Below, one piece after another: positions 3,009 through 56,953 of a stretch of 64,000 bases of DNA; the first letter of the stretch is position 1; the number at the start of each line of letters is the position of its first letter. Source of the DNA: Erodium maritimum (taxonomy: Eukaryota; Streptophyta; Magnoliopsida; Geraniales; Geraniaceae); contig OY997596.1 in NCBI GenBank assembly GCA_963921825.1, forward strand, positions 13,459,001 to 13,523,000, read 5' to 3'. The translations under genes and the position numbers were made by a program. The notes under the pieces were generated by a model. It made no database searches. It was not told where the DNA came from and saw only the letters and a program-made list of their open reading frames with translations.

Positions 3009-3018
3009 TTTATAATAA

Positions 3019-3363: not shown

Positions 3364-3429
3364 TTTATAATAAAAATGATCAAATAGAATATATTTTTTT
3401 TTAAAATTTAAACTTTTAATTCATGTAAA

Positions 3430-9134: not shown

Positions 9135-10822
9135 TGTTGGGTCTCGAGGTAGGGTTGGAGATGAACCAACTCGCAGCGGAAAATCAATGAAAACCAAGAG
9201 ACAATTAAAACCATGAAACAACTAACAAAGAATGGATTAACAAGAGAAAAATTCAGCACTAGTTCTTACCAAAACAAGAACACCGGTTAACGAATGATTG
9301 GCTTGAGTCTCCAAGACGCCTACGTATCCACATGGGAATCAAAGCCACGTAGTTCTTCTCTTTGAGGACTCAAGAACACAAACATGGAGGTGGAAACTAG
9401 CCAAAACCGAAATGGCCATGGAAGAGGGAGAGAAAATGTGTTTCCTATTCTTGTCTTGTGTTTGTTATGTTGAAAAAAGATGACTTAAACATAACAAAAC
9501 CCATACTTGTCCAACTAAAGGCATGGGACAAGTATGGTGTCAAGTAAGGTGTAAATAGGACAAAGTATGGCAAGACAAGATTGGGTTAGGTGGTGAATCA
9601 CCAACACCTTAATCCTTGTCTTGCTTACTTAGTACTAATTAATCAAGACTTGATTAATTAGTTCCATGGGCCTTGGTTGCACGGGCCTTTCATGGGCCTC
9701 TTGGAACATGGCCCGTGGCCATTTCTAACGAGGTCCCGTGATTCGCTCATCGCCTCCAAGCCTTCCATACCGGAAATGTCCAACATTATCCGACGCGATC
9801 AATCCCAAGACTCCAAGCCTTGTCTCGATCCGTAAAGTCCTATTCACGTACGGGCACATGACCCAAAACCCAGTTTTGGTCATGTCCCGAGACAACTCCC
9901 TTTTGGCCATTCTCCATAAATGTGTCAATGAGTTTCATCCTCCGGTGTGACCCTTAGGTTTATGCATGTCAATAGATCAACGTAAAATCCCATTTTACTT
10001 GATCCTATTTAAGTGGCAACTAACGAGACTTTAGTATTGCCTGACACTGCATAACGAATCGACCCTGTCGATTCTAACCTTTCCGTCGTCCCTGTCATTA
10101 TCCTTTTATCTCCGATATCCTGATTGAGATAAGGCATAGAGCCGTCATCCTTATTATTCTCAATCACCGTTCCTTGATATGTGAGATGACTGAAGATATG
10201 ATACCCAGTATCATGTGCATGGCCATGCTATTCTTCTAGTCATTCTCGATCAAGCGGCCGAGAACCGATATCTTTCCCATACCTTAGTATGAGGGATAAA
10301 TCCCTTAGCCGTCTTTCGTGTCACTCATGTAGCCCGTCCCCAAGCCAATCCTGGCCGTTATGGAAGCCCTGTTACGGACAACGTTAGGCTCAGGTCAAAC
10401 TCAGTTGTTGACTACATAGCGATCACAAAGACTCCTTGGTCTAAGGATACATGACAAGCTACAACACTGAATATGTTCATGACTTAATCTATGGCACATA
10501 TTCAGGGCGGGTCGTCCAATATCATGTCCCACATGATATCTATGATCAGACTCCGGAATCCCATTCCAATGACTAACAGAACGTAAGCCATAAAGAGCCA
10601 TCTTTCATACTAGTCGCTTCTAGTGAAGCTTTGTTGACTAGGGACCTATCGAGTGTGATCTATCTCGATCTATGGTTCTATTCGCATGGTGGGCATAGAT
10701 CAGAGCACACGTCGATATATTACTCCAACACATAAGTAATATAAAGCCGCTTTAATTTTATTGCTAACGATGATATGTACATTTGGACATTTAGGATTGA
10801 ACTACGGGCACTAAGACTAACA
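9135..10822 (-). repeat. 3' LTR of copia copy A
   Basis: It starts TGTTGGGTCT and ends CTAACA on the plus strand, which is TGTTAG...CCCAACA in element orientation. Its partner is 15912-17599. A small open frame at 9725-9928 and another at 10401-10601 recur in all four LTRs of this family in the window. They are treated as chance frames. Confidence 0.93.
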
Positions 10823-10973
10823 ATCTCCCACTTGCCCTAGTTCCAATCTAAACTCCAATATGTCCCCATCGACTTTACATGTCTAACATGTTCAGGTAGT
10901 GACACTGCCTTAGTCAAAGGGTTGGCTATGTTATCATCTGTTGCAATATCGGTTATCTTCACTTCACCTCAGT

Positions 10974-13900
10974 TCAGTATTTATCTGATGAGGTGGATAC
11001 GCCGCAGTACATGTTTGGATTTGTTATACGCTCTAGGCTTTTAGCTTGCGCAATGGCCCTTGTGTTGTCGCAAGATGGATTCACCAGGCTGGATGGGTTT
11101 TTAATTACACCCAGCACTGCCATGAATTTCCAAATCCACATAGCCTCCTTAGCTACCTCTGCAGCATCCATGTACTTGGCCTCTGTCGTAGATTCGGCAA
11201 TGATATCTTGCTTTACGCTCTCCCAGCTAAAGCTCTACCATTCAGCGTAAACACATATCCTGATTGACTTCTAAAGTCATCTGGATTTGTCTTGGAAAAC
11301 TAGCGTCTACTCATCCTTCGACGACTAGTTCAACATCATCTTTCCCCCGGGTTAGAATGATGTCTACTGGTACAACATAAGGCTTACGAGACGTCTGGTC
11401 TCATACATGTCATGGCATATATGATCGATCCTACCCCCAGGCGCATAGGATTCTCATCATCCTTTTCAGCTCATCAGGTGTCTTAGGACACTAAGTCTTG
11501 CTGAGATGAATGCCATGACTAGTGGGTAAGAGTCCTTTCTTTGAATCGAGCATTAAGAACCTACTCAATGCCTTGTTCACATAGGTTCCTTGACTTAAAT
11601 CCAAGACCCTCTTGGTGCGATCTCTACATATCTTAATCCTTAAGATATAAGAAGCATCGCCTAAGTCCTTTATTGAAAAACACTTCCTCAACCAAGCTTT
11701 AGTCTCGTGCAAGGTTGGGATGTCGTTTACAATGAGAACCAGAAAGGTAATATTGCTCCCACTAGCCTTCTTATAAACGCAAGATTCATCCTCGTTCCTG
11801 ATTAAGCCAAATCCAATTACAGCTTCATCAAAACGAAGGATCCAACTCCGAGAAGTTCGTTTCAATCCATAAATGGATTTCAACAACTTATAAATCTTTC
11901 CTTTATTCTTCGGATCGTCAAAACCTTTGGGCCGAGACATACAAACGTACTCAGTCAAATTTCCATTTAGGAAAGCGGTTTTGACATCCACTTGCCATAT
12001 CTCGTAATTATGATACGCAGTTATGTCAAGAAAAATTTGGATCGATTTTGACCATAGCCACTAAGGAGAAGGTTTCCTCATAGTCAATCCATTGGATCTG
12101 CCTATAACCTTTCGCCACCAGTTGAGCTTTGTAGGTCAGAGGGTTGCCGTCCATATCCATCTTCACCTTGAAGATCCATTTGCATCCTATGGTCCTCACA
12201 CCATTGATGGGATCAACCGGTTCCCAGACTCGGTTGTCCGACATGGATTGCATTTCCTCCCTCATGGCTCCCAACCATAACTCGGAGTTGGGCCCATCCA
12301 CGACTTCTTGAAAGGTGGCTGGATCATCGTGATCCACCATGACTTCATTGTCACCTCCGGATACCATATCTTGGAGGTGGAAGATTGATCCTTTCAAATC
12401 GCCTTGGACCTTCCGGAATTGTAACAGGAATTGGTTCTTACTCTACGACAATCTCTGGCTCCTTTCTACTGGGTTGCCAATTGGTTTAGACAGATCTATA
12501 CCATCCTGAATTTCTTCGAGATGCACAGTCCTCCCAATGACGTCTTTGGAAACAAAACTTCTTTTCCATAAAGACCCCACCCCAAGCGACGAACACCATG
12601 TTCTCACTGGGATTGTAGAAATAGTATCCCCTTGTTGCTTTGGGATACCACACGAAGGTGCATATCTCAGATCTTGGTTCGAGCTTAGTCGAAACCAAAT
12701 GTTTCACATAAGCCTCGCAACCACAAATCTTTAGGAAGGACAAAGCGGGCATCATCCCGTACCATTTTTAAAATGGTGTCCCTTCCACACCATTCGTCGA
12801 AGCCCGATTCACTATGAATGCGGTCGTCTCTAGAGCAAAACCCCTAAAAGAGATTCGGAGATCAGTCCAACTAATCATGGAACAGACCATTGTCTAACAA
12901 TGTCCGATTTCTCCGTTTGGCTACACCTTTCAACTACAGTGACCTAGGATGAGTCCATTCCAAAAGGATCCCATTCTCTTTTAGATGATCTAATAACTCT
13001 GTGGTCAAGTATTTTCCACCTCGATCCAATCGAAGTGCCTTAATACCTTTGTCGAGCTGGTTTTCTACTATAGTCTTAAACTCTTTGAATTTATCAAAAG
13101 CTTCAGACTTATGTCTCACCGAATAGACATAACCATATTTACTGTAATCATCAGTAAATGTGATAAAGTAGCTAAAACCCCTCCTGGCAAGTGAACTTAT
13201 TGGTCTACACACATTCGAGTGTATCAGCCCCAACAATTCACCCGCCCTTTCATCGCGATCGATAAAAGGGCACTTTAGTCATTTTGCCCATTCAAACAAA
13301 CCTTGCACCTATCGATCGAATGGAATTCGAATGAACCTGAAAGTCCGCACTTCTGAATTGCTGATAGGTGCTTCTTGTTTATGCGACCTAGATGACAGTG
13401 CCTTAACAGAGTTAGGTTTAAATCGTTGGATTTAGACCTCTTGGTATTAACGGAATATATAGAACTTGAGGCATTGTTACCCATATCTAATATGTACAAT
13501 CCTCCAACCAAGTCAGTACTTGTATAAAACATATCATTGCATAGAACATTGAAAACTCCATTTCCAATATTAACATTATATCCTTCCTTGTCAAACACGG
13601 ATACAAATATAATATTCCTACTAAAAGTAGGTATGCAATATACATTATACAATACTAAGAAAAGGCCACTTGGCAAAGCAAGACTCATGGATCCTACAGC
13701 AGTTGCCACAACTCTGAGGTCCACTTCGTACTTTCCAAACCTCTCCTACTTTCAGCCACCATATATAAGTGCATGTGTGAGATTCAGTCCTGGTATCTAA
13801 TACCCATGAATATTTGTAAGTAGAGAGATGTAGCTCTATAGAGTTAATACCGGATGAAGGCACGGTCCCACCGCCCTTCCTTAGATCATCCAGGTTTCCT

Positions 13901-14353
13901 GATGAAGGCGCAGTCCTACTGCCCTTCTTCAGATCATCCACGCTATTTGATGAAGGCGCAGTCCCACTGTCCTTCTTCTAATCAGTCGTGAACTTCCTGT
14001 AATCCCGGTTCCCATGACCAGGCTATTGGCAGTAGAAGCAGACATTCTCAGGTGTCTCATCTTTCCTGCCAAGTGCGCATGGGCCCCGCCCTTGCCACTT
14101 CCAATTCCCTTGTTGACCATCAGAATATCCTTGGATCCCAGATCCCTGATATATTCTTCTCAGCAATTAATGACACTTCATGTAACTCTGATATGGTCTT
14201 AGAGACAGCCTTGTCAAGGACATATTCTTTGCGTTCAGACTTGAGGACTATCCTCAAAATTCTGTACCAGTCCAAATAGTTTGTCCCATTTAGCTTGACC
14301 CTGTCAAGAATGGTTTTTAATGACAAACTTTTAATGTTCGCTGAATTTGCCAT
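10974..14353 (-). pseudogene. Broken gag-pol of copia copy A
   Basis: Gag opens at 14353 with 77 codons (MANSANIKSLSL) and stops. A degenerate knuckle and linker follow (about 13850-14100). The GAG-pre-integrase region is 13275-13724, integrase core 12934-13236, integrase C-terminal block 12486-12755, reverse transcriptase 12026-12397 and 11491-11991, and RNase H 10974-11171. The protease DTG reads DTR, the first integrase Asp is Asn (HSNVCRP), and the integrase Glu before RRNRT is Lys. The usual YVDD of the reverse transcriptase is IVND. An extra A near 13290 (KVCLNGQND instead of KVCLMGKMTK) adds a frameshift that copy B lacks. Confidence 0.88.
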
Positions 14354-15898
14354 TTGATCTACAACAGATAAAATTCAATCAGTAAACTGAATAAATTTTA
14401 TGAAGATCAAGCTTAAACACCAACAATCGATTCTAAACCTTTAGAATCTGAAACCAAGATCCTTGATTCACTCGATTAAGCTGAACTAATGCTCACCACT
14501 TAATCGAGCTATGTAGGTAGGACTCCATCCAATCACATCCAATGTGACTCTTGGCTAGGGTATGTACTTATGTACACGGCTTACCCTATCTGTTACCCTA
14601 GCTCAACCTCAGGCTGAGAATCGTAGTCGGGTCCACCAATTTTCAACTATGGCCCGTCACTATGTAGGTGCTCCGCTAATGCGCACGACACCCACATATG
14701 TCGTCCAAACCTACTACCCCGCTTTCCCATGGATGCTCCGCTAATGCGCACGACACCCATAGGACGGGGAGGTAGTAAGGTGTTGATAATTGGGAGGTAT
14801 CGGACATGACCCGCTTTTACTTGTCCGGTTGTGTTTAAAACTTTGGCACATCCTAGATGCGATGAGCACATCAACTACATTCCAAATGCAATGATGCCTC
14901 AAATTACATCCAATGTAATTCTTCCTTCGAACCCGTCAACTACATCCAATGTAATGACGATTCTAAGGGCTCACACACAAGGATTAAAATTCCAATTTTA
15001 TCTTTGCATGTGAGGTGATATGCTCGGTAAATAAAGTTAAGCATGCAATTCTAAAACACATAGAATTAGTCATGCATAAACTAAACCAAACATAAAGCGA
15101 TAAATGTGCACATAATAGCCCCCTAAACTAACTCCCACTAGCTTCTTGAGCTCCACCGACTCCAAGCCGATGCCAACACCCGAAAAGCCACCAAATGACC
15201 TTTTCGCCCTTTCTTCGTCTTGAGTAAAATATTACAATTTAATACACGACTCGCAGGTCGGGAATAAATAAATATTACAAACAAGTGGTTCGACGACCAC
15301 ACCTTGAAAGAATAATTACACGTTAACTCTAACGGCTCGCAGGCCGTGAAAGGCGATAAATAATTAAATCGAGCTCGGGGCTATTATGTACACCATGCCA
15401 ACATCACATCACACATCGTGTTATCAAACAAGCATGTTATCAAACATCATGTGATTTTCCGGTTTTAATTAATAGCCAAGTTTCGAAATTTTTTTGATGC
15501 TCGGTTTATCGAAACCGTTCAAAAATGAAACTTTTGAACATTTGATCTTCGAGTTCGTCATGACGGTTCCAAACTCGTCATAACTAACAAAACGGTTTAG
15601 CCTTGGCATATCAACCATCCAATGGTCATGCTTGGCTTAGCTCCGTCCAACGGAGCCCCGTTCGGTCCCGGTTTCGGCTCCCCGAGAGTCCCGCTCCCGA
15701 GACCCGAAAAATCAAAAAAAATTTCAAAATTTCCAGATTTGAAATAATTTTCAAAAATTCATTTTACATGCATTAAATCCATAAACAATAATTTAAAACA
15801 TGTTATCAAACAATTTAGCAAAACAACATGCCAAAAACGAAACTTTCAAGCAAAACCGAAACTTTGAACACCGTCTTGTGAATCCCGAAGGTAGCACG

Positions 15899-15910
15899 GC
15901 TCTGATACCA
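15899..15910 (-). promoter_or_regulatory. Primer-binding site of copia copy A
   Basis: The minus strand reads TGGTATCAGAGC, complementary to the 3' end of initiator Met-tRNA, one base inside the 5' LTR. This is where minus-strand DNA synthesis would start. Confidence 0.92.
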
Positions 15911-15911
15911 C

Positions 15912-17599
15912 TGTTGGGTCTCGAGGTAGGGTTGGAGATGAACCAACTCGCAGCGGAAAATCAATGAAAACCAAGAGACAATTAAAACCATGAAACAACT
16001 AACAAAGAATGGATTAACAAGAGAAAAATTCAGCACTAGTTCTTACCAAAACAAGAACACCGGTTAACGAATGATTGGCTTGAGTCTCCAAGACGCCTAC
16101 GTATCCACATGGGAATCAAAGCCACGTAGTTCTTCTCTTTGAGGACTCAAGAACACAAACATGGAGGTGGAAACTAGCCAAAACCGAAATGGCCATGGAA
16201 GAGGGAGAGAAAATGTGTTTCCTATTCTTGTCTTGTGTTTGTTATGTTGAAAAAAGATGACTTAAACATAACAAAACCCATACTTGTCCAACTAAAGGCA
16301 TGGGACAAGTATGGTGTCAAGTAAGGTGTAAATAGGACAAAGTATGGCAAGACAAGATTGGGTTAGGTGGTGAATCACCAACACCTTAATCCTTGTCTTG
16401 CTTACTTAGTACTAATTAATCAAGACTTGATTAATTAGTTCCATGGGCCTTGGTTGCACGGGCCTTTCATGGGCCTCTTGGAACATGGCCCGTGGCCATT
16501 TCTAACGAGGTCCCGTGATTCGCTCATCGCCTCCAAGCCTTCCATACCGGAAATGTCCAACATTATCCGACGCGATCAATCCCAAGACTCCAAGCCTTGT
16601 CTCGATCCGTAAAGTCCTATTCACGTACGGGCACATGACCCAAAACCCAGTTTTGGTCATGTCCCGAGACAACTCCCTTTTGGCCATTCTCCATAAATGT
16701 GTCAATGAGTTTCATCCTCCGGTGTGACCCTTAGGTTTATGCATGTCAATAGATCAACGTAAAATCCCATTTTACTTGATCCTATTTAAGTGGCAACTAA
16801 CGAGACTTTAGTATTGCCTGACACTGCATAACGAATCGACCCTGTCGATTCTAACCTTTCCGTCGTCCCTGTCATTATCCTTTTATCTCCGATATCCTGA
16901 TTGAGATAAGGCATAGAGCCGTCATCCTTATTATTCTCAATCACCGTTCCTTGATATGTGAGATGACTGAAGATATGATACCCAGTATCATGTGCATGGC
17001 CATGCTATTCTTCTAGTCATTCTCGATCAAGCGGCCGAGAACCGATATCTTTCCCATACCTTAGTATGAGGGATAAATCCCTTAGCCGTCTTTCGTGTCA
17101 CTCATGTAGCCCGTCCCCAAGCCAATCCTGGCCGTTATGGAAGCCCTGTTACGGACAACGTTAGGCTCAGGTCAAACTCAGTTGTTGACTACATAGCGAT
17201 CACAAAGACTCCTTGGTCTAAGGATACATGACAAGCTACAACACTGAATATGTTCATGACTTAATCTATGGCACATATTCAGGGCGGGTCGTCCAATATC
17301 ATGTCCCACATGATATCTATGATCAGACTCCGGAATCTCATTCCAATGACTAACAGAACGTAAGCCATAAAGAGCCATCTTTCATACTAGTCGCTTCTAG
17401 TGAAGCTTTGTTGACTAGGGACCTATCGAGTGTGATCTATCTCGATCTATGGTTCTATTCGCATGGTGGGCATAGATCAGAGCACACGTCGATATATTAC
17501 TCCAACACATAAGTAATATAAAGCCGCTTTAATTTTATTGCTAACGATGATATGTACATTTGGACATTTAGGATTGAACTACGGGCACTAAGACTAACA
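15912..17599 (-). repeat. 5' LTR of copia copy A
   Basis: Same length as the 3' LTR and nearly identical to it. It is followed on the minus strand by the primer-binding site, and its outer edge borders the duplication ACACC. Transcription from this LTR would run toward lower coordinates, away from the laccase gene whose start codon is about 960 bp to the right. Confidence 0.93.
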
Positions 17600-37647: not shown

Positions 37648-39645
37648 CTGCGAAAAGGTGGTTTCCCTACCTTCCGACTAGCACTCGGTAAAACGCTGTG
37701 TTGAGCACCGCGAGAGATGAGGCCGCGAAGAGGCGATTTCCCTGCCTTCCGTCGATCGGTAAAACGATGTGTTCCGTGATGAGGTCGACCGCCTATCCTG
37801 ACTTTGTGTGGGGAAGTTGCGTGCGGCTGCGCCGGGCCGAGCGGGTTGCTCCCGAGACCGTGCGATGGTTACGAGTTGTGTGTTTGAGATTGCTTTGAAT
37901 TGAATGAGTATTGTTGTGTTGTGGCCTTGAGTGTTTTCCTTGTTGTGAGTCGTGTGTGACCGTGAATAACTTGATTCTGATTGTTTGATGATGAGTTCAT
38001 GGGTGTGGTTTCCGTGTAAGTTAAGGCGTCTTCTTTGTGGTTATCTGTGAGTCGTTCGTGAAGGGGTTCTGGACGAGGAATTCCGGGATATTTTGTGGTC
38101 AATGTAAAGTGAAGGTTGTTTAATGTGGGTTGCATGTTCTCGTTGTCGCCTTCTCCTTTTAACCGTTAAAAAGTTAGTTTGGAATTGTACTTGGGTGTCT
38201 TACTTGGATTGTTCCTTTCGGGGCGTGCTTGGTCTGTTGTGGTGTTGAGTTAGAGTTGGGGTGTTGGGACTGGTGAAGGTCAGGAAAAAGGGGGAATTGT
38301 ATTTAAATGGTTTAAGTGTCAAACCGTTGTATCAAACCTTTCAATATATTTTTAAACTGTAGTAAGACTGTCTAGTAAAACTGTAATGAGGAGGTTTTGT
38401 GGTTTTCCCTACTGAGCGTCAAGCTCATCCCTTACCGTGTTTTCTACAGGTTTTACTTATGATTTGAAGTAGAGGGCTACGCAGAGCTTGGGAGCTAGCG
38501 GAGGCCGAGTTTCTTTATGTTCGTAGAGACGTACCTTTCAAAAATGAATTATTGTATTTAACTAAGCTTAAGACTCAAAATTTGAACTTCTCGTTGATTT
38601 ATATATTATTTCGTCTTTATCAGTTATCTTTTTCCTCTTTTAGGTTTTATTATTTAATTTCACTAAGTCACGTCTCGAGTCCGATCAATACCGGATTTGG
38701 GGCGTAACAAAACAAGTAAATGATAGAACACAACTAATAACAACATAGGTCATACAAGACCAACAAGAGGAACAAACATGTAAAACAAAAATGAGTCTAA
38801 TACCAAGGAAACACAAGGCAAGTAGCTCCAAAAACAATTGAACCGAAGCTTGTATGACCACGAAAAAACCATCCAAATCCAGAACTCAACGGAACTCGAG
38901 AGTATCCGGTTGTCGTCGGCCAACACCGAACACGGTTGAGTTGAATGCAGATATGGAGAAAACTTACTATACCTAAATACGTCGACCCTAATGTAACTCC
39001 AAATAGGGCTAACAACCCAAAACAAGCTCGTCCGGAAAACACCGACGACGAGCCCTAAGCCTTACCACTACACCACTGCTAGTAAAGAGGGAACAGTAGA
39101 GGAGAAAACAAAAGGAAAAATGGGAAAGTGTAAATAGAAATCCCAGATCTGACTTGGAGGAGGATTTCAGAGGTAGCTGCGGAGGTAGCTACGGACCAGA
39201 TCCGCAATGATCCCAACAGAGGCAAGGCGGAAGCGCGTCCCACAACCAGATATGGTGCGAGAAGCCGAAGATGGAGGTGTGTAACAGGATCCACTGAACG
39301 CCGAAGGAGAAGGCGAAAAAAGGCGATAAGGTAGTCCCCGTTGCAGCAGTCCAGATCTGCGATGATCCCCACCAAAGGAGGTGGAGAAACGTGTCTTACG
39401 GTCGGATCTAAGGCGAAATGCCAAAAACGATAGGAGAGCAGTCACCGCCGAAGAAAAAAAAAGTAGTGAAAGAGAAGAGAAGGGAAGAGACAAGAGGAGA
39501 AGGAGGATTTCACCGGTGACGACCTCAATAGGCATGGCCACGAGGTCACCACCAAAAACGATGACGGAAGGATGGGTAAAAGGTTGTTCGAGAGAGTTTA
39601 GATAGAGGAGTTTTTTGCTGGGTTTTAATTAAAATCTATGAGATT

Positions 39646-40970: not shown

Positions 40971-43900
40971 CTAGCAAATCCCCCACCATTGTAAAATTAA
41001 ATTCCAAGTACCCCAGGCTTTGCTACAATGTAGAAAAATGTGTGCTCCATCTTCAAAATCCCAGTTGCATTGAGTACATATCAATTGATTGAGTGAGAAG
41101 TCCATACCCCTCTCTTCAAGGAAGCATTTAGAGGGGACTGCATCAAGGCATGCAAGCCAAGAGAGGGCTGATATTTTTGAGGGTATACCAGGTTTCCATA
41201 TTGAAACAGTCCAGTTCACATCTGATGTACCTTGTTGAGCAATCAAGGAGTATAATTTTTGTACTGAGAAGCCCTTAGCATCCCCCTTCCAGATAAGTAT
41301 GTCATCAATATCAAGTAGCTGAACTGAATCAATTACCATACAGAACAAATCCCATTGTTGCTCCTCCCAACCTCTAGGCCACCTCCTAAGAGAGAAATCC
41401 CAAGCAACCCCATCCCAAAGATCAGTAATGACCTTATTTTTTTGATTGAGCCAATGAATAAATTCTAGGGAATAAGAACTTGAAGGACGCATCCCCCCAC
41501 CAAGTATCCTCCCAGAAGGAAGTTCTATTCCCTCTTCCCAATTGCCAAGAGAGACCATTATTTCCAAATAAATTGGAGAACTTTTGATCCTGAAGTAGAG
41601 TAATTATGTGGGTCATGTAGGATGAGCAACCAAGTTCATTGAATTTTGTCAGGTCCCATTCCTTTTTGTTCCATCCAAGCCTAGCACAGACAACCTGCTT
41701 CCAGAGTGAGTTCTCCTTAAGAGCAAATCTCTAGCCCCATTTAGCAAGTAGAGCATCATTCATCAAATTGAGTTTTTTGATCCCAAGGCCACCTTCTGAT
41801 TTGTTTTTACACACCTGGTTCCATCCAACCTTACAGAAGACTTTGGAGGGGGCTGAGGGATGCCTTAGAAACCTTCTTTGCCATCTTTCCATTGTTTTGA
41901 GAACTGATTTAGGGGCCTTGAGGAGTGAAAAGTAATATAGAGGTAGCACTTAGAGTAGATTTAATTAGAATAATTCTGCCCCCAAAAGATAACAATTTGG
42001 CTTGCCAAAGGCCCAAGTGGTTCTTGAAATTTTGTATGATTGGTTCCCAGTGATGAGCCTTTTTGGGTTTGATCCAAGATAGAAGCCCAGGTATTTGAAG
42101 GGGAGGCTTTCAGCTTGGCAGTTTAGTATCTGAGGGTATATAAGTGCTTCTTCATCTGTCAAATTCTGAGTGATGATGGTTGATTTAGAGAAATTGACTT
42201 TGAGGCCAGCAACCATCTTGAACATCTTAAGGGCATTCTTGAGATTGTAAGCCCCATCTTCAGTAGCTTTGATGAAGAATATAGTGTCATCAGCAAACTG
42301 AAGATGTGAGATGATGGGGCCATTAGTCCCAATTGTGATTCCTTGGAAATGCTCATGGGCCAATCCTGCCTTCATGATTTGGTTTAAGGCTTCAGCAACC
42401 AGGGCAAATAGTAATGGGGAAAGAGCACAACCCTGTCTTATGCCTCTGAGTAATTGAAAGTCTGGGGATGGGTATCCATTGATCAGAACAGATACATGTG
42501 CCTTGAAGCAGGAAATGATCCAAAGTTTCCATAAGAGTCCAAATCCCATCCTGGCCAAGAGTTTCATGACAAAATTCCAGTGAACATTATCAAAAGCCTT
42601 TTCAAAGTCAGCTTTGAAAATCAAGGCTTTGATCTTTTCTTTCTTTATTTGGAGGACTACCTCATTTGCTACCAGTACCCCATCTAGGATCTACCTACCA
42701 GCAATGAATCCTGTTTTCTCAAACCCTACTAGAGAAGATGCTATTTTTTTTTTAATCTGAGAGACAGTAGTTTTGTGAGGATCTTATAAGGAGCACCCAT
42801 AAGACTGATGGGCCTATAGTCATCAAAGGAGATAGGGGAGTCACATTTTGGGATTAAGGTGATGAATGAGGAGTTGATACCTTTTCCCAGATGGCCTGTC
42901 ATGTGGAAATATGTGAAGAAACTTAATAGGTCAGCTTTGAGTATATGCCAACAGACTTGGAAGAATTTCAAGGTAAAGCCATCTGGCCCTGTGGCTTTAT
43001 CTCCAGCACAAGCCATTAGGGCCATTAGTATTTCAGGTTCAGTGAACGGTAGTTCAAGTTCTTGAGCTTGTTGTATAGAGAAAGATTTGAATTGTAGGTG
43101 ATCAATATTTATGAGATTTGTAGGAGGCTCTGAGAATTTGTTGCTGAAGTGTATGAGGCTGCCTCTTTAATTTCTTGAGGATCAATCAAGATCTCCCAAT
43201 TGTGCTGTATCTGAGTGAGCTTATTCCTTGCTCCTTGGAAGTTTGCTACTCTATGATAATATTTAGACCCTTTGTCTCCATCTTCATGCCATTTTTTCTT
43301 GACTTATGGCTCCAAAGTTTTGCTAGGAGTTTAGTTTTTTTGTATCAATTCAGCTTTGAACAGACCTCTTTGATTGAGCTCAGCAGAGGTAAGGGTTCTT
43401 TGCTCAATTAGAGAGTCAAGAGCATCAATATCTTTTCTGAGATTAGCAATTTGGGTATCAAGAATTCCATAGACCTGAGTATTCTAGTCTCTGAGCTTTT
43501 CTTTTAGCAGTTTAAGTTTCTTCCATAATATGAGGTGTGGTTGTCCATTGAGGTTAAAGGATTCCCAGCACTCCTGCACAAATGGATGAAATCTTCTATC
43601 TTCTGACCAAACATTGAGGAATTTGAAGGGTCTTGGGCCCCAATCAACCTGATCACCAAACAAAACAAGAGCTCTATGATCTAGATGCATCTAGGAATGC
43701 ATAGTTGTGTGAGGTTGTTGTAAGAGGCAAGGAAGTCAGATGATATAAAGAATCTGTCAATTCTTGAGGCCACTGACCCAGGGCCAAACCAAGTAAATCT
43801 CCCACCTGCTAATGGAAGATCAATGAGTCCTAGACCATCCACCAAGTGTTGAAGAGAGTCCATATCAGTTGAAGATGCTCTTGCTGAAGATCTTTCAGAA

Positions 43901-44349
43901 GGGTCCAGAACAGCATTGAAGTCTCCAGCCATGACTAGCATTGAGGGTGGGTTAAGGTCATCAAGCTTAGAGGATAGAGCAAGCCAGAGAGATCTTCTTG
44001 CTCTAGAGAAGCAAGGAGGATAAATATTAACATAGCAGCAAAGAGATCCAAGATCAAGAGCTTCACCAATCCAGATCATTGCTCCTGGAATTTTTGTGAC
44101 TGAGAGTTTCATACAGGAATGAGTTTTCCAAAGCATTATTAAGCCTCCAGAAAGTCCTTCAGCAGGTATGTGATCTATATCCCACCCAATAGTTAGACCA
44201 CGAGATCTGAGAAAGTGAGAGGGGAGGGTTTCAATTTTTGTTTCTTGAAGGAGCACCATTTGGGGCAGTTGCTTGCGTAGCACGTCTGCAAGGGTCTTCC
44301 TCTTTTGTGAGGAAGAGAGGCCTCTCATATTCCATGAGAGAGCCTTCAT
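40971..44349 (-). pseudogene. LINE ORF2: endonuclease, reverse transcriptase, zf-RVT
   Basis: The AP-type endonuclease is 43681-44349 (MKALSWNMRGL, LLQETK, VMAGDFNAVLDPSERSS, SRIDRFF). After a frame change near 43690 it continues with DHRALV. The reverse transcriptase starts at about 43025 (GPDGFTLKFFQ, DDYRPISLMGAPYKI) and continues at 42624 (ADFEKAFDNVHW, RGIRQGCALSPLLF, LQFADDTIFF with an intact catalytic pair). The thumb is at 41731-41949. The zf-RVT domain is 40971-41567 (SIWKPGIPSKISALSWLA, CTQCNWDFEDGAHIFLHC), with a short C-terminal tail to about 40650. At least four frame breaks inactivate it. Confidence 0.85.
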
Positions 44350-44580
44350 GTTCTGAAATTAGAGGGTTGGGGATGCCCTGAGCTTATTGCTCACATGGGC
44401 ATCAGAATCAGAGTCTTTTTGTAGATCAACATAATCTTCTTCACTTCCTATATCTAGATCAACACCTTCAATCCTCTCATCATCAAGGGAAGCTAGTTGC
44501 AGAAGCACTTGTTCTTCACTACAGTCTGTAGTCAACCCAATTGCCTTGCCAAAAGACCAGGCCTTATTGGCCTCATTTAA

Positions 44581-46728
44581 TTAAGCTTTAGAAACAAAAG
44601 ATTTAGCTCCTTTGGTTTTTGACCTACTCGGATATTTGTGAGCAGAGAGGGAGGCCTTTTTTGTTTTTGATTTTGATGAGGTCTTTCCTTTTTTCCAGTT
44701 ACCAAGGGAGGGAAAATTTGAATCTAAAAGCCCCAAATGTTCAGCCACTTCTAGGGTTTGTGGGTCTAGTGGTCTGGTGTGTATGCCAGTAGAAAGGGGA
44801 TGATTGTCACTGAGAAGACAATCCAAGCCACCAAACTGGGCTGGAGGGGACATATTGGAAGGAGTATCTCTCCTAAGATCAGAACCAATTAATGCCTCAT
44901 TTCCCAAAGTTGTTCTCTCACCTGACTTTGAATGTGATAACAATAAATGTTGTTGGTCCCTTGTACTTGTTTCTTCAACAGTGAGAAAAATTGGTTGCTG
45001 ATGTACTAAATTGGGGATGAGTGAGGTATTTAGTTGAAGATTGACTGAATCCAGTGGTTGAGTGACTGAAATACCTCCTTGAGACTTTGAAGTGAACTTA
45101 GTCTCAGTCTCAGTCAGAAGGATCTGGTCAGGATTGTTCTGTTGCAGACTGGACTTGGAGTTTTTGCTTTCCTCAGTTATTAGCAAGGAGATTGGCTCAA
45201 AAGTATCATGCACCACCAGATGTAGAAGATTCGAAGGTTGTTGAGAGGTAATAACTGCTGGGGAGGTATGAATTTGTAGGCAGTCTTTCACAGGAACATT
45301 CTCTTTCAGACCAAGATTGCCTTCCATAAATGGAGTTGGCTGAATCCTTGTACCAGTACCTTCTAAGGTAGCAATCCTAACAGTGCCATCTTCATTATTG
45401 AAAGAACCACCCAAATCAGAGGAAAATGAGGCTGATCTTTCCTCAAATGGTGACTGTAGTGGATCAGAATCCTTTGAGCTCGGGTCTTGGGAGGAAGAAC
45501 TTTGTTGAGAAGATATATTAGGAAGCTCACTATCCTTTATAGAGACTATGTTGATTTTATAGGATTGTGATCCTAAAATTAGATCCTCCTCTGCAAATAA
45601 GAAGGAAAAGGAAGTTGTATGAATCAATACATAAGCAATGCCAATTTTCATACCCAATTTTGTTTGTGGATGTGTGCAAATAAAACTCCCCAGGTTAGAA
45701 ACAGCTGCAGCAAATAACTCCTCGCACCATCCATGGTATGGGATACCATGGATAGCTACCCAACCGTATGAGCCTCCTTGTTTCAATAGATAATCCTTTC
45801 CTGGTATAATGGATAGCCAATTAGCAAGCCAATCACCATCTTCATGCAGCAATTCTTGGTTGAGAATAGGATTAGAGCAATGCAGTAGTAGAACTTTGTT
45901 CCCTAGGTCCTTGAGATTTATATCACAAACTTCCTCTATTGTGATGTCCCTCATAATTTCCTCAGAGGAGTAATTATTATGAGCCAAAGCTAGATGACAG
46001 TGTTGAAGATAATGGTGTTGTGCTGTTACAATGGAACCTTGGATTCTGGGAGGATGAGGGGTATGAACGGTAGCAGGCAAGTACTGAGAAGTTACTGGTT
46101 TCTTGTGTTGTGGTGAGTTGTTGGCATATATGTTCTTCCCAAGTGCTCTTGTGACATACAACTTGAAACCATTTATCGTGTAACCATTAAACATAGTGAT
46201 GGCTTGTTGCAATTGTTCATGACTTTGGAAATAGCAGAAGCCATAATGTTTTCCCAATCTACTTCTGTTGGCAGCAATGTGAACTTTTGCAACACCCCCA
46301 ATTTCTGAAAAGAGATTGGCTAACCAGAAGGTAGTAGCTCTAGTTGGAAGATTATGGATATATGCTACAAATGACTTCTCATCCATAGCTTTTCTTTTGA
46401 GGTTAATCTTGGCTGCATTTCTTCTTGGGAGATAGTCTTCAAACCCTGGTGGTGGGTAACCTATCGAGGAAGAAGGTTGTTGTTGCAGAGATACCACCAG
46501 AGATTTGAGTTTCCTCATTCTTTTGGTGCGCCCCGAAGTGGTGGTTTTGAAGAAGAATTGGCCAGTGTTGTCGTTGAAGTCTTGACCATAATCTTGTCGG
46601 ATCTGTCTACGGAGTTGCGATGAGGTTTGTGAATGTCCATAGCTTCCAAGATCTTCAGCATTGGTGTTGAGAGGGTCGTCTTGTGCGGTAGATAGGTGGA
46701 GTGGAGCAGAGGTACCCGAGCGAGCCAT
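44581..46728 (-). CDS. LINE ORF1 protein with RRM, open over 715 residues
   Basis: The frame is uninterrupted. A basic N terminus precedes an RNA-recognition motif at about residues 119-195, with RNP2-like YIHNLP (123-128) and RNP1-like KHYGFCYF (160-167). Around residues 270-410 lies a region with YGWVAIHGIPYHGWCEELF, the DUF4283-like block common in plant retroelement ORF1s. The last 300 residues are Ser/Gln/Thr-rich, and the C terminus is Lys-rich (KGKTSSKSKTKKASLSAHK). It would coat LINE RNA for retrotransposition. No CCHC knuckle is present. The long intact frame contrasts with the broken ORF2 and suggests a fairly recent copy. Confidence 0.85.
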   Translation of the reverse strand: MARSGTSAPLHLSTAQDDPLNTNAEDLGSYGHSQTSSQLRRQIRQDYGQDFNDNTGQFFFKTTTSGRTKRMRKLKSLVVSLQQQPSSSIGYPPPGFEDYLPRRNAAKINLKRKAMDEKSFVAYIHNLPTRATTFWLANLFSEIGGVAKVHIAANRSRLGKHYGFCYFQSHEQLQQAITMFNGYTINGFKLYVTRALGKNIYANNSPQHKKPVTSQYLPATVHTPHPPRIQGSIVTAQHHYLQHCHLALAHNNYSSEEIMRDITIEEVCDINLKDLGNKVLLLHCSNPILNQELLHEDGDWLANWLSIIPGKDYLLKQGGSYGWVAIHGIPYHGWCEELFAAAVSNLGSFICTHPQTKLGMKIGIAYVLIHTTSFSFLFAEEDLILGSQSYKINIVSIKDSELPNISSQQSSSSQDPSSKDSDPLQSPFEERSASFSSDLGGSFNNEDGTVRIATLEGTGTRIQPTPFMEGNLGLKENVPVKDCLQIHTSPAVITSQQPSNLLHLVVHDTFEPISLLITEESKNSKSSLQQNNPDQILLTETETKFTSKSQGGISVTQPLDSVNLQLNTSLIPNLVHQQPIFLTVEETSTRDQQHLLLSHSKSGERTTLGNEALIGSDLRRDTPSNMSPPAQFGGLDCLLSDNHPLSTGIHTRPLDPQTLEVAEHLGLLDSNFPSLGNWKKGKTSSKSKTKKASLSAHKYPSRSKTKGAKSFVSKA

Positions 46729-48490: not shown

Positions 48491-50179
48491 TGTTAGTCTT
48501 AGTGCCCGTAGTTCAATCCTAAATGTCCAAATGTATATATCATCGTTAGCAATAAAATTAAAGCGGCTTTATATTACTTATGTGTTGGAGTAATATATCG
48601 ATGTGTGCTCTGATCTATGCCCACCATGCGAATAGAACCATAGATCGAGATAGATCACACTCGATGGGTCCCTAGTCAACAAAGCTTCACTAGAAGCGAC
48701 TAGTATGAAAGATGGCTCTTTATGGCTTACGTTCTGTTAGTCATTGGAATGGGATTCTGGAGTCTGATCATAGATATCATGTGGGACATGATATTGGACG
48801 ACCCGCCCTGAATATGTGCCATAGATTAAGTCATGAACATATTCAGTGTTGTAGCTTGTCATGTATCCTTAGACCAAGGAGTCTTTGTGATCGCTATGTA
48901 GTCAACAACTGAGTTTGACCTGAGCCTAACGTTGTCCGTAACAGGGCTTCCATAACGGCCAGGATTGGCTTGGGGATGGGCTACATGAGTGACACGAAAG
49001 ACGGCTAAGGGATTTATCCCTCATACTAAGGTATGGGAAAGATATCGGTTCTCGGCCGCTTGATCGAGAGTGACTGAAAGAATAGCATGGCCATGCACAT
49101 GATACTGGGTATCATATCTTCAGTCATCTCACATATCAAGGAACGGTGATTGAGAATAATAAGGATGACGGCTCTATGCCTTATCTCAATCAGGATATCG
49201 GAGATAAAAGGATAATGACAGGGACGACGGAAAGGTTAGAATCGACAGGGTCGATTCGTAATGTAGTGTCAGGCAATACTAAAGTCTCGTTAGTTGCCAC
49301 TTAAATAGGATCAAGTAAAATGGGATTTTACGTTGATCTATTGACATGCATAAACCTAAGGGTCACACCGGAGGATGAAACTCATTGACACATTTATGGA
49401 GAATGGCCAAAAGGGAGTTGTCTCGGGACATGACCAAAACTGGGTTTTGGGTCATGTGCCCGTAAGTGAATAGGACTTTACGGATCGAGACAAGGCTTGG
49501 AGTCTTGGGATTGATTGCGTCGGATAATGTTGGACATTTCCGGTATGGAAGGCTTGGAGGCGATGAGCGAATCACGGGACCTCGTTGGAAATGGCCACGG
49601 GCCATGTTCCAAGAGGCCCATGAAAGGCCCATGCAACCAAGGCCCATGGAACTAATTAATCAAGTCTTGATTAATTAGTACTAAGTAAGCAAGACAAGGA
49701 TTAAGGTGTTGGTGATTCACCACCTAACCCAATCTTGTCTTGCCATACTTTGTCCTATTTACACCTTACTTGACACCATACTTGTCCCATGCCTTTAGTT
49801 GGACAAGTATGGGTTTTGTTATGTTTAAGTCATCTTTTTTCAACATAACAAACACAAGACAAGAATAGGAAACACATTTTCTCTCCCTCTTCCATGGCCA
49901 TTTCGGGTTTGGCTAGTTTCCACCTCCATGTTTGTGTTCTTGAGTCCTCAAAGAGAAGAACTACGTGGCTTTGATTCCCATGTGGATACGTAGGCGTCTT
50001 GGAGACTCAAGCCAATCATTCGTTAACCGGTGTTCTTGTTTTGGTAAGAACTAGTGCTGAAATTTTTCTCTTGTTAATCCATTCTTTGTTAGTTGTTTCA
50101 TGGTTCTAATTGTCTCTTGGTTTTCATTGATTTTCCGCTGCGAGTTGGTTCATCTCCAACCCTACCTAGAGACCCAACA
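48491..50179 (+). repeat. 5' LTR of copia copy B
   Basis: TGTTAGTCTT...GACCCAACA, 1689 bp, one base longer than the LTRs of copy A. It is followed directly by one base and the primer-binding site. Confidence 0.95.
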
Positions 50180-50180
50180 G

Positions 50181-50192
50181 TGGTATCAGAGC
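50181..50192 (+). promoter_or_regulatory. Primer-binding site of copia copy B
   Basis: TGGTATCAGAGC, complementary to the 3' end of initiator Met-tRNA, one base after the 5' LTR. Confidence 0.93.
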
Positions 50193-51735
50193 CGTGCTAC
50201 CTTCGGGATTCACAAGACGGTGTTCAAAGTTTCGGTTTTGCTTGAAAGTTTCGTTTTTGGCATGTTGTTTTGCTAAATTGTTTGATAACATGTTTTAAAT
50301 TCTTGTTTATGGATTTAATGCATGTAAAATGAATTTTTGAAAATTATTTCAAATCTGGAAATTTTGAATTTTTTTTGATTTTTCGGGTCTCGGGAGCGGG
50401 ACTCTCGGGGAGCCGAAACCGGGACTGAACGGGGCTCCGTTGGACGGAGCTAGGCCAAGCATGACCATTGGATGGTTGATATGCCAAGGCTAAACCGTTT
50501 TGTTAGTTATGACGAGTTTGGAACCGTCATGACGAACTCGAAGATCAAATGTTCAAAAGTTTCATCTTTGAACGGTTTCGATAAACCGAGCATCAAAAAA
50601 TTTCGAAACTTGGCTATTAATTAAAACCGGAAAATCACATGATGTTTGATAACATGCTTGTTTGATAACACGATGTGTGATGTGATGTTGGCATGGTGTA
50701 CATAATAGCCCCGAGCTCGATTTAATTATTTATCGCTTTTCACGGCCTGCGAGCCGTTAGTGTTAGCGTGTAATTATTCTTTCAATGTGTGGTCGTCGAA
50801 CCACTTGTTTGTAATATTTATTTATTCCCGACCTGCGAGTCGTGTATTAAATTGTAATATTTTACTCAAGATGAAGAAAGGGCGAAAAGGTCATTTGGTG
50901 GCTTTTCGGGTGTTGGCATCGGCTTGGAGTCGGTGGAGCTCAAGAAGCTAGTGGGAGTTAGTTTAGGGGGCTATTATGTGCACATTTATCGCTTTATGCT
51001 TGGTTTAGTTTATGCATGATTAATTCTATGTGTTTTAGAATTGCATGCTTAACTTTATTTACCGAGCATATCACCTCACATGCAAAGATAAAATTGGACT
51101 TTTAATCCTTGTGTGTGAACCCTTAGAACCGTCATTGCATTGGATGTAGTTGACGGGTTCAAAGGAAGAATTACATTGGATGTAATTTGAGGCATCATTG
51201 CATTTGGAATGTAGTTGATGTGCTCATCGCATCTAGGATGTGCCAAAGTTTTGAACACAACTGGACAAGTAAAAGCGGGTCATGTCCGATACCTCCCAAT
51301 CATCAACACCTTACTACCTCCCCGTCCTATGGTTGTCGTGCGCATTAGCGGAGCATCCATGGGGAAGCGGGGTAGTAGGTTTGGACGACATATGTGGGTG
51401 TCGTGCGCATTAGCGGAGCACCTACATAGTGACGAGCCATAGTTGAAAATTGGTGGACCCGACTACGATTCTCGGCCTGAGGTTGAGCTAGGGTAACAGA
51501 TAGGGTAAGTCGTGTACATAAGTACATACCCTAGCCAAGAGTCACATTGGATGTGATTGGATGGAGTCCTACCTACATAGCTCGATTAAGTGGTGAGCAT
51601 TAGTTCAGCTTAATCGAGTGAATCAAGGATCTTGGTTTCAGATTCTAAAGGTTTAGAATTGATTGTTGGTGTTTAAGCTTGATCTTCATAAAATTTATTC
51701 AGTTTACTGATTGAATTTTATCTGTTGTAGATCAA

Positions 51736-54700
51736 ATGGCAAATTCAGCGAACATTAATAGTTTGTCATTAAAAACCATCCTTGACAGGGTCAAGCTAAA
51801 TGGGACAAACTATTTGGACTGGTACAGAATTTTGAGGATAGTCCTCAAGTCTGAACGCAAAGAATATGTCCTTGACAAGGCTGTCTCTAAGACCATATCA
51901 GAGTTACATGAAGTGTCATCAGCTGCTGAGAAGAATATCTCAGGGATCTGGGATCCAAGGATATTCTGATGGTCAACAAGGGAATTGGAAGTGGCAAGGG
52001 CTGGGCCCATGCGCACTTGGCAGGAAAGATGAGACACCTGAGAATGTCTGCTTCTACTGCCAACAGCCTGGTCATTGGAACCGGGATTACAGGAAGTTCA
52101 CGGCTGATCTGAAGAAGGGCAGTGGGACTGCGCCTTCATCAAATAGCGTGGATGATCTGAAGAAGGGCAGTAGGACTGCGCCTTCATCAGGAAACCTGGA
52201 TGATCTAAGGAAGGGCGGTGGGACCGTGCCTTCATCCGGTATTAACTCTATAGAGCTACATCTCTCTACTTCCAAAGATTCATGGGTATTAGATACCAGG
52301 ACTGAATCTCACACATGCACTTATATATGGTAGCTGAAAGTAGGAGAGGTTTGGAAAGCACGAAGTGGACCTCAGAGTTGTGGCAACTGCTGTAGGATCC
52401 ATGAGTCTTGCTTTGCCAAGAGGCCTTGTCTTAGTATTGTATAATGTATATTGCATACCTACTTTTAGTAGGAATATTATATCTGTATCCGTGTTTGACA
52501 AGGAAGGATATAATGTTAATATTGGAAATGGAGTTTTCAATGTTCTATGCAATGATATGTTTTATACCAGTACTGACATGGTTGGAGGATTGTACATATT
52601 AGATATGGGTAACAATGCCTCAAGTTCTATATATTCCGTTAATACCAAGAGGTCTAAATCCAACGATTTAAACCTAACTCTGTTATGGTACTGTCATTTG
52701 GGTCGCATAAACAAGAAGCGCCTATCAGCACTTCAGAAGTGCGGGCTTTCAGGTTCATTCGAATTCCATTCGATCGATAGGTGCAAGGTTTGTTTGATGG
52801 GCAAAATGACTAAAGTGCCCTTTATCGATCGCGATGAAAGGGCGGGTGAATTATTGGGGCTGATACACTCGAATGTGTGTAGACCAATAAGTTCACTTGC
52901 CAGGAGGGGTTTTAGCTACTTTATCACATTTACTGATGATTACAGTAAATATGGTTATGTCTATTCGGTGAGACATAAGTCTGAAACTTTTGATAAATTC
53001 AAAGAGTTTAAGACTATAGTAGAAAACCAGCTCGACAAAGGTATTAAGGCACTTCGATTGGATCGAGGTGGAAAATACTTGACCACAGAGTTATTAGATC
53101 ATCTAAAAGAGAATGGGATCCTTTTTGAATGGACTCCTCCTAGGTCACTGTAGTTGAAAGGTGTAGCCAAACGGAGAAATCGGACATTGTTAGACAATGG
53201 TCTGTTCCATGATTAGTTGGACTGATCTCCCAATCTCTTTTAGGGGTTTTGCTCTAGAGACGACCGCATTCATAGTGAATCGGGCTTCGACGAATGGTGT
53301 GGAAGGGACACCATTTTAAAAATGGTACGGGATGATGCCCGCTTTGTCCTTCCTAAAGATTTGTGGTTGCGAGGCTTATGTGAAACATTTGGTTTCGACT
53401 AAGCTCGAACCAAGATCTGAGATATGCACCTTCGTGTGGTATCCCAAAGCAACAAGGGGATACTATTTCTACAATCCCAGTGAGAACATGGTGTTCGTCG
53501 CTTGGGGTGGGGTCTTTATGGAAAAGAAGTTTTGTTTCCAAAGACGTCATTGGGAGGACTGTGCATCTCGAAGAAATTCAGGATGGTACAGATCTGTCTA
53601 AACCAATTGGCAACCCAGTAGAAAGGAGCCAGAGATTGTCGTAGAGTAAGAACCAATTCCTGTTACAATTCCGGAAGGTCCAAGGCGATTTGAAAGGATC
53701 AATCTTCCACCTCCAAGATATGGTATCCGGAGGTGACAATGAAGTCATGGTGGATCACGATGATCCAGCCACCTTTCAGGAAGTCGTGGATGGGCCCAAC
53801 TCCGAGTTATGGCTGGGAGCCATGAGGGAGGAAATGCAATCCATGTCGGACAACCGAGTCTGTGAACCGGTTGATCCCATCAATGGTGTGAGGACCATAG
53901 GATGCAAATGGATCTTCAAGGTGAAGATGGACATGGACGGAAACCCTCTGACCTACAAAGCTCAACTGGTGGCGAAAGGTTATAGGCAGATCCAATGGAT
54001 TGACTATGAGGAAACCTTCTCCTTAGTGGCTATGGTCAAAATCGATCCAAATTCTTCTTGACATAACTGCGTATCATAATTACGAGATATGGCAAGTGGA
54101 TGTCAAAACCGCTTTCCTAAATGGAAATTTGACTGAGTACGTTTGTATGTCTCGGCCCAAAGGTTTTGACGATCCGAAGAATAAAGGAAAGATTTATAAG
54201 TTGTTGAAATCCATTTATGGATTGAAACGAACTTCTCGGAATTGGATCCTTCGTTTTGATGAAGCTGTAATTGGATTTGGCTTAATCAAGAACGAGGATG
54301 AATCTTGCGTTTATAAGAAGGCTAGTGGGAGCAATATTACCTTTCTGGTTCTCATTGAAAACGACATCCCAACCTTGCACGAGACTAAAGCTTGGTTGAG
54401 GAAGTGTTTTTCAATAAAGGACTTAGGTGATGCTTCTCATATCTTAAGGATTAAGATATGTAGAGATCGCACCAAGAGGGTCTTGGATTTAAGTCAGGGA
54501 ACCTATGTGAACAAGGCATTGAGTAGGTTCTTAATGCTCGATTCAAAGAAAGGACTCTTACCCACTAGTCATGGCATTCGTCTCAGCAAGACTCAGTGTC
54601 CTAAGACACCTGATGAGCTGAAAAGGATGATGAGAATCCTATGCGCCTGGGGGCAGGATCGATCATATATGCCATGACATGTATGAGACCAGACGTCTCG

Positions 54701-55113
54701 TAAGCCTTATGTTGTACCAGTAGACATCATTCTAACCCGGGGGAAAGATGATGCTGAACTAGTCGTCGAAGGATGAGTAGACGCTAGTTTTCCAAGACAA
54801 ATCCAGATGACTTTAGAAGTCAATCAGGATATGTGTTTACGCTGAATGGCAGAGCTTTAGCTGGGAAAGCGTAAAGCAAGATACCATTGCCGAATCTACG
54901 ACAGAGGCCAAGTACATGGATGCTGCAGAGGCAGCTAAGGAGGCTATGTGGATTTGGAAATTCATGGCAGGGCTGGGTGTAATTAAAAACCCATCCAGTC
55001 CGGTGAATCCATTTTGCGACAACACAAGGGCCATTGCGCAAGCTAAAAGCCTAGATCGCTTAACAAATCCAAACATGTACTGCGGCGTATCCACCTCATC
55101 AGATAAATACTGA
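51736..55113 (+). pseudogene. Broken gag-pol of copia copy B
   Basis: Gag starts at 51736 and stops after 77 codons. The knuckle region lies in another frame (CFYCQQPGHWNRDY, about 52042), with the last Cys changed to Tyr. Three 48-bp linker repeats follow, then protease (WVLDTRTESH, Gly lost). GAG-pre-integrase plus integrase core form one 262-codon frame, 52365-53153 (HSNVCRP, ALRLDRGGKYL), and GVAKRRNRT follows near 53165. The integrase C-terminal block is 53332-53601. Reverse transcriptase is at 53690-54061 (CKWIFKVK) and 54096-54677 (MDVKTAFLNG, IENDIP in place of YVDD). RNase H is 54916-55113. Most of gag is deleted. Confidence 0.9.
52103..52246 (+). repeat. Three 48-bp repeats between gag knuckle and protease
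   Basis: Units at 52103, 52151 and 52199 encode variants of DDLKKGSRTAPSSGNL. The period keeps the frame. Copy A has the same array at about 13855-13980 on the minus strand, so the expansion predates both insertions. Confidence 0.88.
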
Positions 55114-55264
55114 ACTGAGGTGAAGTGAAGATAACCGATATTGCAACAGATGATAACATAGCCAACCCTTTGACTAAGGCAGTGTCACTGCCTGAACACG
55201 TTAGACATGTAAAGTCGATGGGGACATATTGGAGTTTAGATTGGAACTAGGGCAAGTGGGAGAT

Positions 55265-56953
55265 TGTTAGTCTTAGTGCCCGTAGTTCAATCCTAAATGT
55301 CCAAATGTATATATCATCGTTAGCAATAAAATTAAAGCGGCTTTATATTACTTATGTGTTGGAGTAATATATCGATGTGTGCTCTGATCTATGCCCACCA
55401 TGCGAATAGAACCATAGATCGAGATAGATCACACTCGATGGGTCCCTAGTCAACAAAGCTTCACTAGAAGCGACTAGTATGAAAGATGGCTCTTTATGGC
55501 TTACGTTCTGTTAGTCATTGGAATGGGATTCTGGAGTCTGATCATAGATATCATGTGGGACATGATATTGGACGACCCGCCCTGAATATGTGCCATAGAT
55601 TAAGTCATGAACATATTCAGTGTTGTAGCTTGTCATGTATCCTTAGACCAAGGAGTCTTTGTGATCGCTATGTAGTCAACAACTGAGTTTGACCTGAGCC
55701 TAACGTTGTCCGTAACAGGGCTTCCATAACGGCCAGGATTGGCTTGGGGATGGGCTACATGAGTGACACGAAAGACGGCTAAGGGATTTATCCCTCATAC
55801 TAAGGTATGGGAAAGATATCGGTTCTCGGCCGCTTGATCGAGAGTGACTGAAAGAATAGCATGGCCATGCACATGATACTGGGTATCATATCTTCAGTCA
55901 TCTCACATATCAAGGAACGGTGATTGAGAATAATAAGGATGACGGCTCTATGCCTTATCTCAATCAGGATATCGGAGATAAAAGGATAATGACAGGGACG
56001 ACGGAAAGGTTAGAATCGACAGGGTCGATTCGTAATGTAGTGTCAGGCAATACTAAAGTCTCGTTAGTTGCCACTTAAATAGGATCAAGTAAAATGGGAT
56101 TTTACGTTGATCTATTGACATGCATAAACCTAAGGGTCACACCGGAGGATGAAACTCATTGACACATTTATGGAGAATGGCCAAAAGGGAGTTGTCTCGG
56201 GACATGACCAAAACTGGGTTTTGGGTCATGTGCCCGTAAGTGAATAGGACTTTACGGATCGAGACAAGGCTTGGAGTCTTGGGATTGATTGCGTCGGATA
56301 ATGTTGGACATTTCCGGTATGGAAGGCTTGGAGGCGATGAGCGAATCACGGGACCTCGTTGGAAATGGCCACGGGCCATGTTCCAAGAGGCCCATGAAAG
56401 GCCCATGCAACCAAGGCCCATGGAACTAATTAATCAAGTCTTGATTAATTAGTACTAAGTAAGCAAGACAAGGATTAAGGTGTTGGTGATTCACCACCTA
56501 ACCCAATCTTGTCTTGCCATACTTTGTCCTATTTACACCTTACTTGACACCATACTTGTCCCATGCCTTTAGTTGGACAAGTATGGGTTTTGTTATGTTT
56601 AAGTCATCTTTTTTCAACATAACAAACACAAGACAAGAATAGGAAACACATTTTCTCTCCCTCTTCCATGGCCATTTCGGGTTTGGCTAGTTTCCACCTC
56701 CATGTTTGTGTTCTTGAGTCCTCAAAGAGAAGAACTACGTGGCTTTGATTCCCATGTGGATACGTAGGCGTCTTGGAGACTCAAGCCAATCATTCGTTAA
56801 CCGGTGTTCTTGTTTTGGTAAGAACTAGTGCTGAAATTTTTCTCTTGTTAATCCATTCTTTGTTAGTTGTTTCATGGTTCTAATTGTCTCTTGGTTTTCA
56901 TTGATTTTCCGCTGCGAGTTGGTTCATCTCCAACCCTACCTAGAGACCCAACA
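55265..56953 (+). repeat. 3' LTR of copia copy B
   Basis: Same length and apparently same sequence as 48491-50179. It is preceded by the purine tract at about 55253-55262 and followed by the duplication GCGCA. Confidence 0.95.

Follow-up and report, generated by a model that had tools for sequence, protein, structure and literature searches.

Closest described systems

In wheat, RLC_Angela includes non-autonomous copia elements that resemble their autonomous partners in size and have a coding sequence riddled with frameshifts and stops. As PMC9744471 describes them, these degenerate elements were active together with autonomous sub-families, by which they are thought to be mobilised. The same source presents BARE2 of barley as a copia element with a broken gag that is presumed to depend on the proteins of a relative (PMC9744471). 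Here, we describe two copies, A and B, of a copia-type long terminal repeat (LTR) retrotransposon in a stretch of 64,000 nucleotides of Erodium maritimum (assembly GCA_963921825.1, contig OY997596.1, positions 13,459,001 to 13,523,000, forward strand), hereafter the window. Both copies were inserted recently, and they derive from a form that had already been broken. We consider it very probable that they are insertions of a non-autonomous lineage whose gag-pol was dead beforehand, having decayed through deamination at CG and CHG sites (H is A, C or T) on both strands together with deletions, frameshifts and other substitutions.

In our assessment, the degenerate RLC_Angela elements of wheat are the closest known system. 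As in that family, going by its description in PMC9744471, a degenerate copia coding sequence goes together with recent activity, but the present lineage is known from two copies alone and its partner is presumed. With BARE2, as characterised in the same source, A and B share a broken gag and a presumed reliance on the proteins of a relative; however, BARE2 keeps its other genes, whereas in A and B protease, integrase and reverse transcriptase are broken too. A and B add a further case of a copia lineage that moved recently although its coding capacity was dead. As to the mutations, PMC12994199 reports from genome-wide polymorphism that transition rates in plants are raised at CG and CHG sites, and that average methylation is no predictor of how high the rate is. 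In A and B, too, C>T is raised at these two types of site, in this case on both strands, although one element lineage with few sites stands against genome-wide polymorphism in that report. Related literature includes reports on deamination in Welwitschia (PMC8275611) and on TARE1 (PMC3701649).

Two recent copies of one element

A and B are full-length LTR elements, 98.5% identical to each other (Table 1). Their LTRs of 1,689 bp end in TG...CA, as in Ty1/copia elements, and differ within the pair at one position in A and at none in B. The 5-bp target duplications, also typical of Ty1/copia, are intact (ACACC at A, GCGCA at B). An earlier sequence-only reading of this DNA had placed both copies at the same coordinates and had described near-identical LTRs and intact duplications, all of which is borne out. 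A primer site and a purine-rich tract adjoin the LTRs in B, where the Pfam domains follow the order zf-CCHC, gag_pre-integrs, rve and RVT_2. Because of this order, with the integrase upstream of RVT_2, the elements are assigned to copia, and A and B are coding-dead Ty1/copia LTR retrotransposons. The primer site, TGGTATCAGAGCC, is what we take to be the initiator-methionine tRNA type.

Of the 124 substitutions that separate the copies, 89 lie in ~5,084 internal bases, whereas the 5' LTR accounts for 18 and the 3' LTR for 17; the A-B alignment has six gaps, all of a single base and none at a shared lesion. Divergence between A and B amounts to 89/5084 in the internal region and is lower, at 18/1690, in the LTR (p 0.055), a difference that LTR exchange or constraint may explain. 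A 48-bp tandem repeat is present between the knuckle and the protease of both copies (window positions 52105-52236 and 13848-13978).

Relatives used for comparison

Searching with a piece of the reverse transcriptase, tblastn matched two plasmid records of Streptomycetaceae, and a scan of bacterial genomes gave 13 further loci. Eight of these sequences (L001-L008), which share 48-59% identity with the window in that piece, probably represent copia DNA of plants that contaminates bacterial assemblies. L001 and L002 are the two plasmid records, one filed as a complete plasmid of Streptomyces camelliae and the other of Kitasatospora cathayae; they share 99.4% identity, contain copia-type sequence and are probably plant contamination filed as plasmids. 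The counts below rest on seven relatives (L001, L003-L008), excluding L002 for its likeness to L001 and the remote L009-L015. L006 and L008, which switch frame between blocks, were kept, as was L003. With the same query, scans of viral contigs, with a single sequence or an alignment, returned pattern matches and no relatives; a search of phage records gave none, and a sequence search of the PDB gave no match.

Shared lesions in gag-pol

In both copies, the last Cys of the knuckle is Tyr and the protease motif DTG is DTR. Within the integrase, Asn replaces the first Asp, Arg the Gly that follows it and Lys the Glu preceding RRNRT, and GGE reads GGK. The relatives aligned at these positions keep the usual residue (five at the knuckle, three at the protease and 10 to 12 in the integrase), the exception being L009, with Glu at the integrase Gly and Asp at the Glu before RRNRT. 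The protease Gly is conserved in 3/3 relatives, once as DSG. The sequence-only reading had named these changes correctly, as it had the elements and their target duplications. Its claim that YVDD had become VND or END does not hold, since YVDD falls inside a 21-nt in-frame deletion, common to A and B, relative to 7/7 close relatives, and IEND aligns with residues beyond the deletion. Nor are the losses almost exclusively G to A, as it had stated: both copies lack 69 of the 288 residues that are invariant in the relatives, and these losses are explained by a single G>A in 17, C>T in 4, A>G in 6, T>C in 3, a transversion in 18 and more than one change in 21.

Larger lesions had been absent from that reading's list. 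Judged by block offsets, gag has lost 443 to 449 nt compared with the 3/3 close relatives that cover the region (L005, L007, L008), and the coding region has four single-base frameshifts. Late in pol, 67 to 68 nt are missing compared with the 5/5 close relatives for which both flanking blocks are available (L001, L004, L005, L006, L007). Since the six A-B gaps fall elsewhere, these deletions and frameshifts are common to A and B. The aligned blocks contain five in-frame stops, all shared by the two copies; four of them fit transversions and one C>T, whereas G>A fits none. The same coding breakage is thus found in two copies, each with the 0 or 1 LTR mismatches of a recent insertion, as in degenerate non-autonomous copia elements. 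Because A and B share a dead gag-pol while their LTR pairs are near-identical, it was the dead form that was copied.

Substitution spectrum and sequence context

A site was polarised if it was covered by at least four relatives that all agreed and if A and B had the same base; sites at which the copies differ, fewer than four relatives align or the relatives disagree were dropped from the shared counts. Shared changes are found at 109/808 polarised sites. Per conserved base, they amount to 31/219 for G>A (0.142), 14/118 for C>T (0.119), 14/238 for A>G (0.059) and 12/233 for T>C (0.052); the remaining 38/109 are transversions. The rates of G>A and C>T do not differ (p 0.62; p 0.33 and 0.28 when 80% and 60% agreement suffices), and C>T alone exceeds the A:T>G:C background (p 0.023). 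At the conserved coding sites, G is 1.9 times more abundant than C. When the relatives are compared one at a time with the others, G>A (55/1416) exceeds C>T (17/779; p 0.033), a stronger imbalance than in the window. Furthermore, G is more frequent and A less frequent in the blocks of the window than in any of the seven relatives, the opposite of a coding-strand G>A load. The differences between A and B, counted for 107 of the 124 (the 17 in the 3' LTR were not recounted), comprise 32 A/G and 44 C/T (p 0.21). Within the blocks are 39 such sites, of which 24 could be polarised (3 G>A, 6 C>T) and 15 could not.

With the context taken from the window's own flanks, C>T is found at 5/18 CG sites, 7/26 CHG sites and 2/74 elsewhere, and G>A at 9/27, 6/26 and 16/166, respectively. 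For both bases, CG/CHG sites are enriched over other contexts (C, 12/44 vs 2/74, p 1e-4; G, 15/53 vs 16/166, p 0.001), which fits deamination of methyl-cytosine on both strands. The relatives, treated alike, have no clear context effect (G, 13/279 vs 42/1137; C, 5/234 vs 12/545). Repeat-induced point mutation, whose context preference would place G>A after T, was set aside, as G>A is commonest after C (9/27) and not after T (8/75).

The sequence-only reading had proposed G-to-A change confined to one strand. The two per-site rates, both raised at CG/CHG, argue against this, and the outcome that it had itself named as speaking against it, equal C-to-T and G-to-A, is nearly reached. Its alternative of methylated DNA as the target was the better half of the guess in view of the CG/CHG enrichment, although the process would have acted on both strands and not on one. 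The G-to-A list reflects ascertainment. Where Asp, Glu, Gly or Cys is invariant, a transition can change the residue in 91 cases by G>A and in 0 by C>T; hence, the pattern appeared because the reading covered these residues, whose codons hide C>T. Reading catalytic residues alone can thus yield a false strand-biased mutation signature.

Origin of the lineage and alternative explanations

The following course of events would account for these observations. The gag-pol of a plant-type copia lineage lost its function before A and B were inserted, while the lineage kept its LTRs, primer site and purine tract. The coding-dead form was presumably mobilised in trans, with the proteins of a working relative copying the lineage. 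In source copies resident in the genome, the coding region would have drifted without constraint; deamination of 5-methylcytosine at CG and CHG sites, the methylation being deduced from context, probably acted on both strands, and deletions, frameshifts and other substitutions would have added to the decay. The sequence-only reading, too, had favored recent movement of a dead form by mobilisation in trans, a part that stands as an interpretation, in contrast to its one-strand G-to-A process.

Several observations weigh against this reading. At 0.434, the GC content of the window's blocks slightly exceeds that of all seven relatives (0.402-0.428), which means that C:G pairs have undergone no visible net loss overall. 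The relatives are distant, at the 48-59% identity given above, and no close intact member was found; stops in aligned codons are absent from 5/7, but L003 has two and L006 one, so not all seven are intact. When the flanks are taken from the relatives, as the ancestral context, the context classes become too small to judge. If a process of the observed size acted purely on one strand, the test would detect it with a power of 0.69. Outside CG/CHG, G>A (16/166) exceeds C>T (2/74; p 0.067), and with looser ancestral calls the counts are 26/234 vs 7/108 (p 0.24) and 46/295 vs 16/158 (p 0.12). Among residue-changing single transitions at invariant residues, G>A accounts for 17/~165 and C>T for 4/~98 (p 0.099). 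The codon-bootstrap interval of the G>A/C>T rate ratio, 0.68-2.41, is compatible with a modest residual strand asymmetry.

These last excesses could reflect a limited ancestral coding-strand G-to-A load outside CG/CHG, lying atop methylation decay and left, e.g., by deamination of minus-strand complementary DNA (cDNA) in a plant. We consider such a load improbable. If real, the small excess would implicate an editor of cDNA, which the evidence does not require. Among the papers listed by a literature search for G-to-A hypermutation in plant LTR elements, as judged by titles and the openings of abstracts, none concerns plant elements with this pattern.

Slightly less probable still is that a cytidine deaminase of the APOBEC type, acting on minus-strand cDNA, killed the ancestor in a single coding-strand burst of G-to-A changes. 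The named catalytic losses fit G>A, and the two excesses just described, outside CG/CHG and among residue-changing steps, point the same way. However, the coding strand does not have the large surplus of G>A over C>T that such editing would leave, as the per-site rates do not differ (the excess outside CG/CHG apart) and C>T is itself raised. The preferred context of APOBEC3G is GG, and G>A is low there (GG 3/68, GA 15/81, GT 7/38, GC 6/32), so no GG preference of this kind is found. In addition, 0/10 conserved Trp codons were turned into stops, none of the five in-frame stops is explained by G>A, and the transversions among the lost residues do not fit such editing either.

It is quite unlikely that selection maintains the decayed frame, whether for some non-coding function or for a residual peptide. 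A frame of 262 codons is still open in B, but the matching frame in A is shorter (149 codons), and the A-B differences are spread evenly over the codon positions (11/14/14) and thus do not point to purifying selection after A and B separated. New LTR insertions in plants may be dead on arrival, as noted in PMC9744471, but that A and B are two independent copies of this kind from a live family, with lesions arisen separately, is hardly conceivable in view of their common deletions, frameshifts and residue losses and near-identical LTR pairs.

Features of the two copies and of the remaining window

Table 1. Coordinates of copies A and B and their parts in the window.
Feature	Position	Strand	Remarks
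Copy B, full-length coding-dead copia element	48491..56953	+	LTR pair identical; target duplication GCGCA
5' LTR of B	48491..50179	+	1,689 bp, TG...CA
Primer binding site TGGTATCAGAGCC of B	50181..50193	+	Read from sequence
gag remnant of B, N-terminal part and knuckle with Cys->Tyr	51736..52100	+	443 to 449 nt lost between (spacing vs L005, L007, L008); Pfam zf-CCHC E 2e-4
Protease motif of B, DTG->DTR in both copies	52283..52315	+	Motif only, without Pfam match
GAG-pre-integrase and integrase core of B	52365..53150	+	Catalytic residues lost; Pfam gag_pre-integrs 3e-8, rve 1e-8
Reverse transcriptase of B	53690..54674	+	Two open pieces, frameshifted, YVDD stretch deleted; Pfam RVT_2 1e-10 and 3e-23
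Last part of pol of B (presumably RNase H, by position)	54853..55223	+	67- to 68-nt deletion precedes, frameshift inside; tblastx blocks
Purine-rich tract of B	55250..55263	+	Directly 5' of the 3' LTR
3' LTR of B	55265..56953	+	Identical to 5' LTR
Copy A, same family as B	9135..17599	-	Target duplication ACACC
5' LTR of A	15911..17599	-	
3' LTR of A	9135..10823	-	1 mismatch to partner LTR

A scan for tRNA genes and a search of Rfam at the gathering threshold found nothing in the window. A second LTR element at 26027-38709 has LTRs of ~3 kb (26027-29004 and 32294-38709), AAACA at both sides, the primer site TGGTATCAGAGCC and only ~3.3 kb between the LTRs. It looks like a large non-coding element, which we take to be LARD-like. 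Its second LTR is interrupted by ~3.3 kb at 34333-37649, a piece that contains tandem arrays with 36-, 55- and 58-bp units (35923-36779). At 41968-46728, on the minus strand, a frame of 715 codons with RRM and DUF4283 (the latter below the cut-off) is found together with an RVT_1 piece, presumably like a plant L1-type long interspersed nuclear element. A multicopper oxidase (laccase-like) stretch of 313 codons is located at 19899-20837 on the plus strand. Two self-complementary stretches of ~300-360 bp, at 20942-21241 (86%) and 3010-3370 (78%), are possibly foldback elements.

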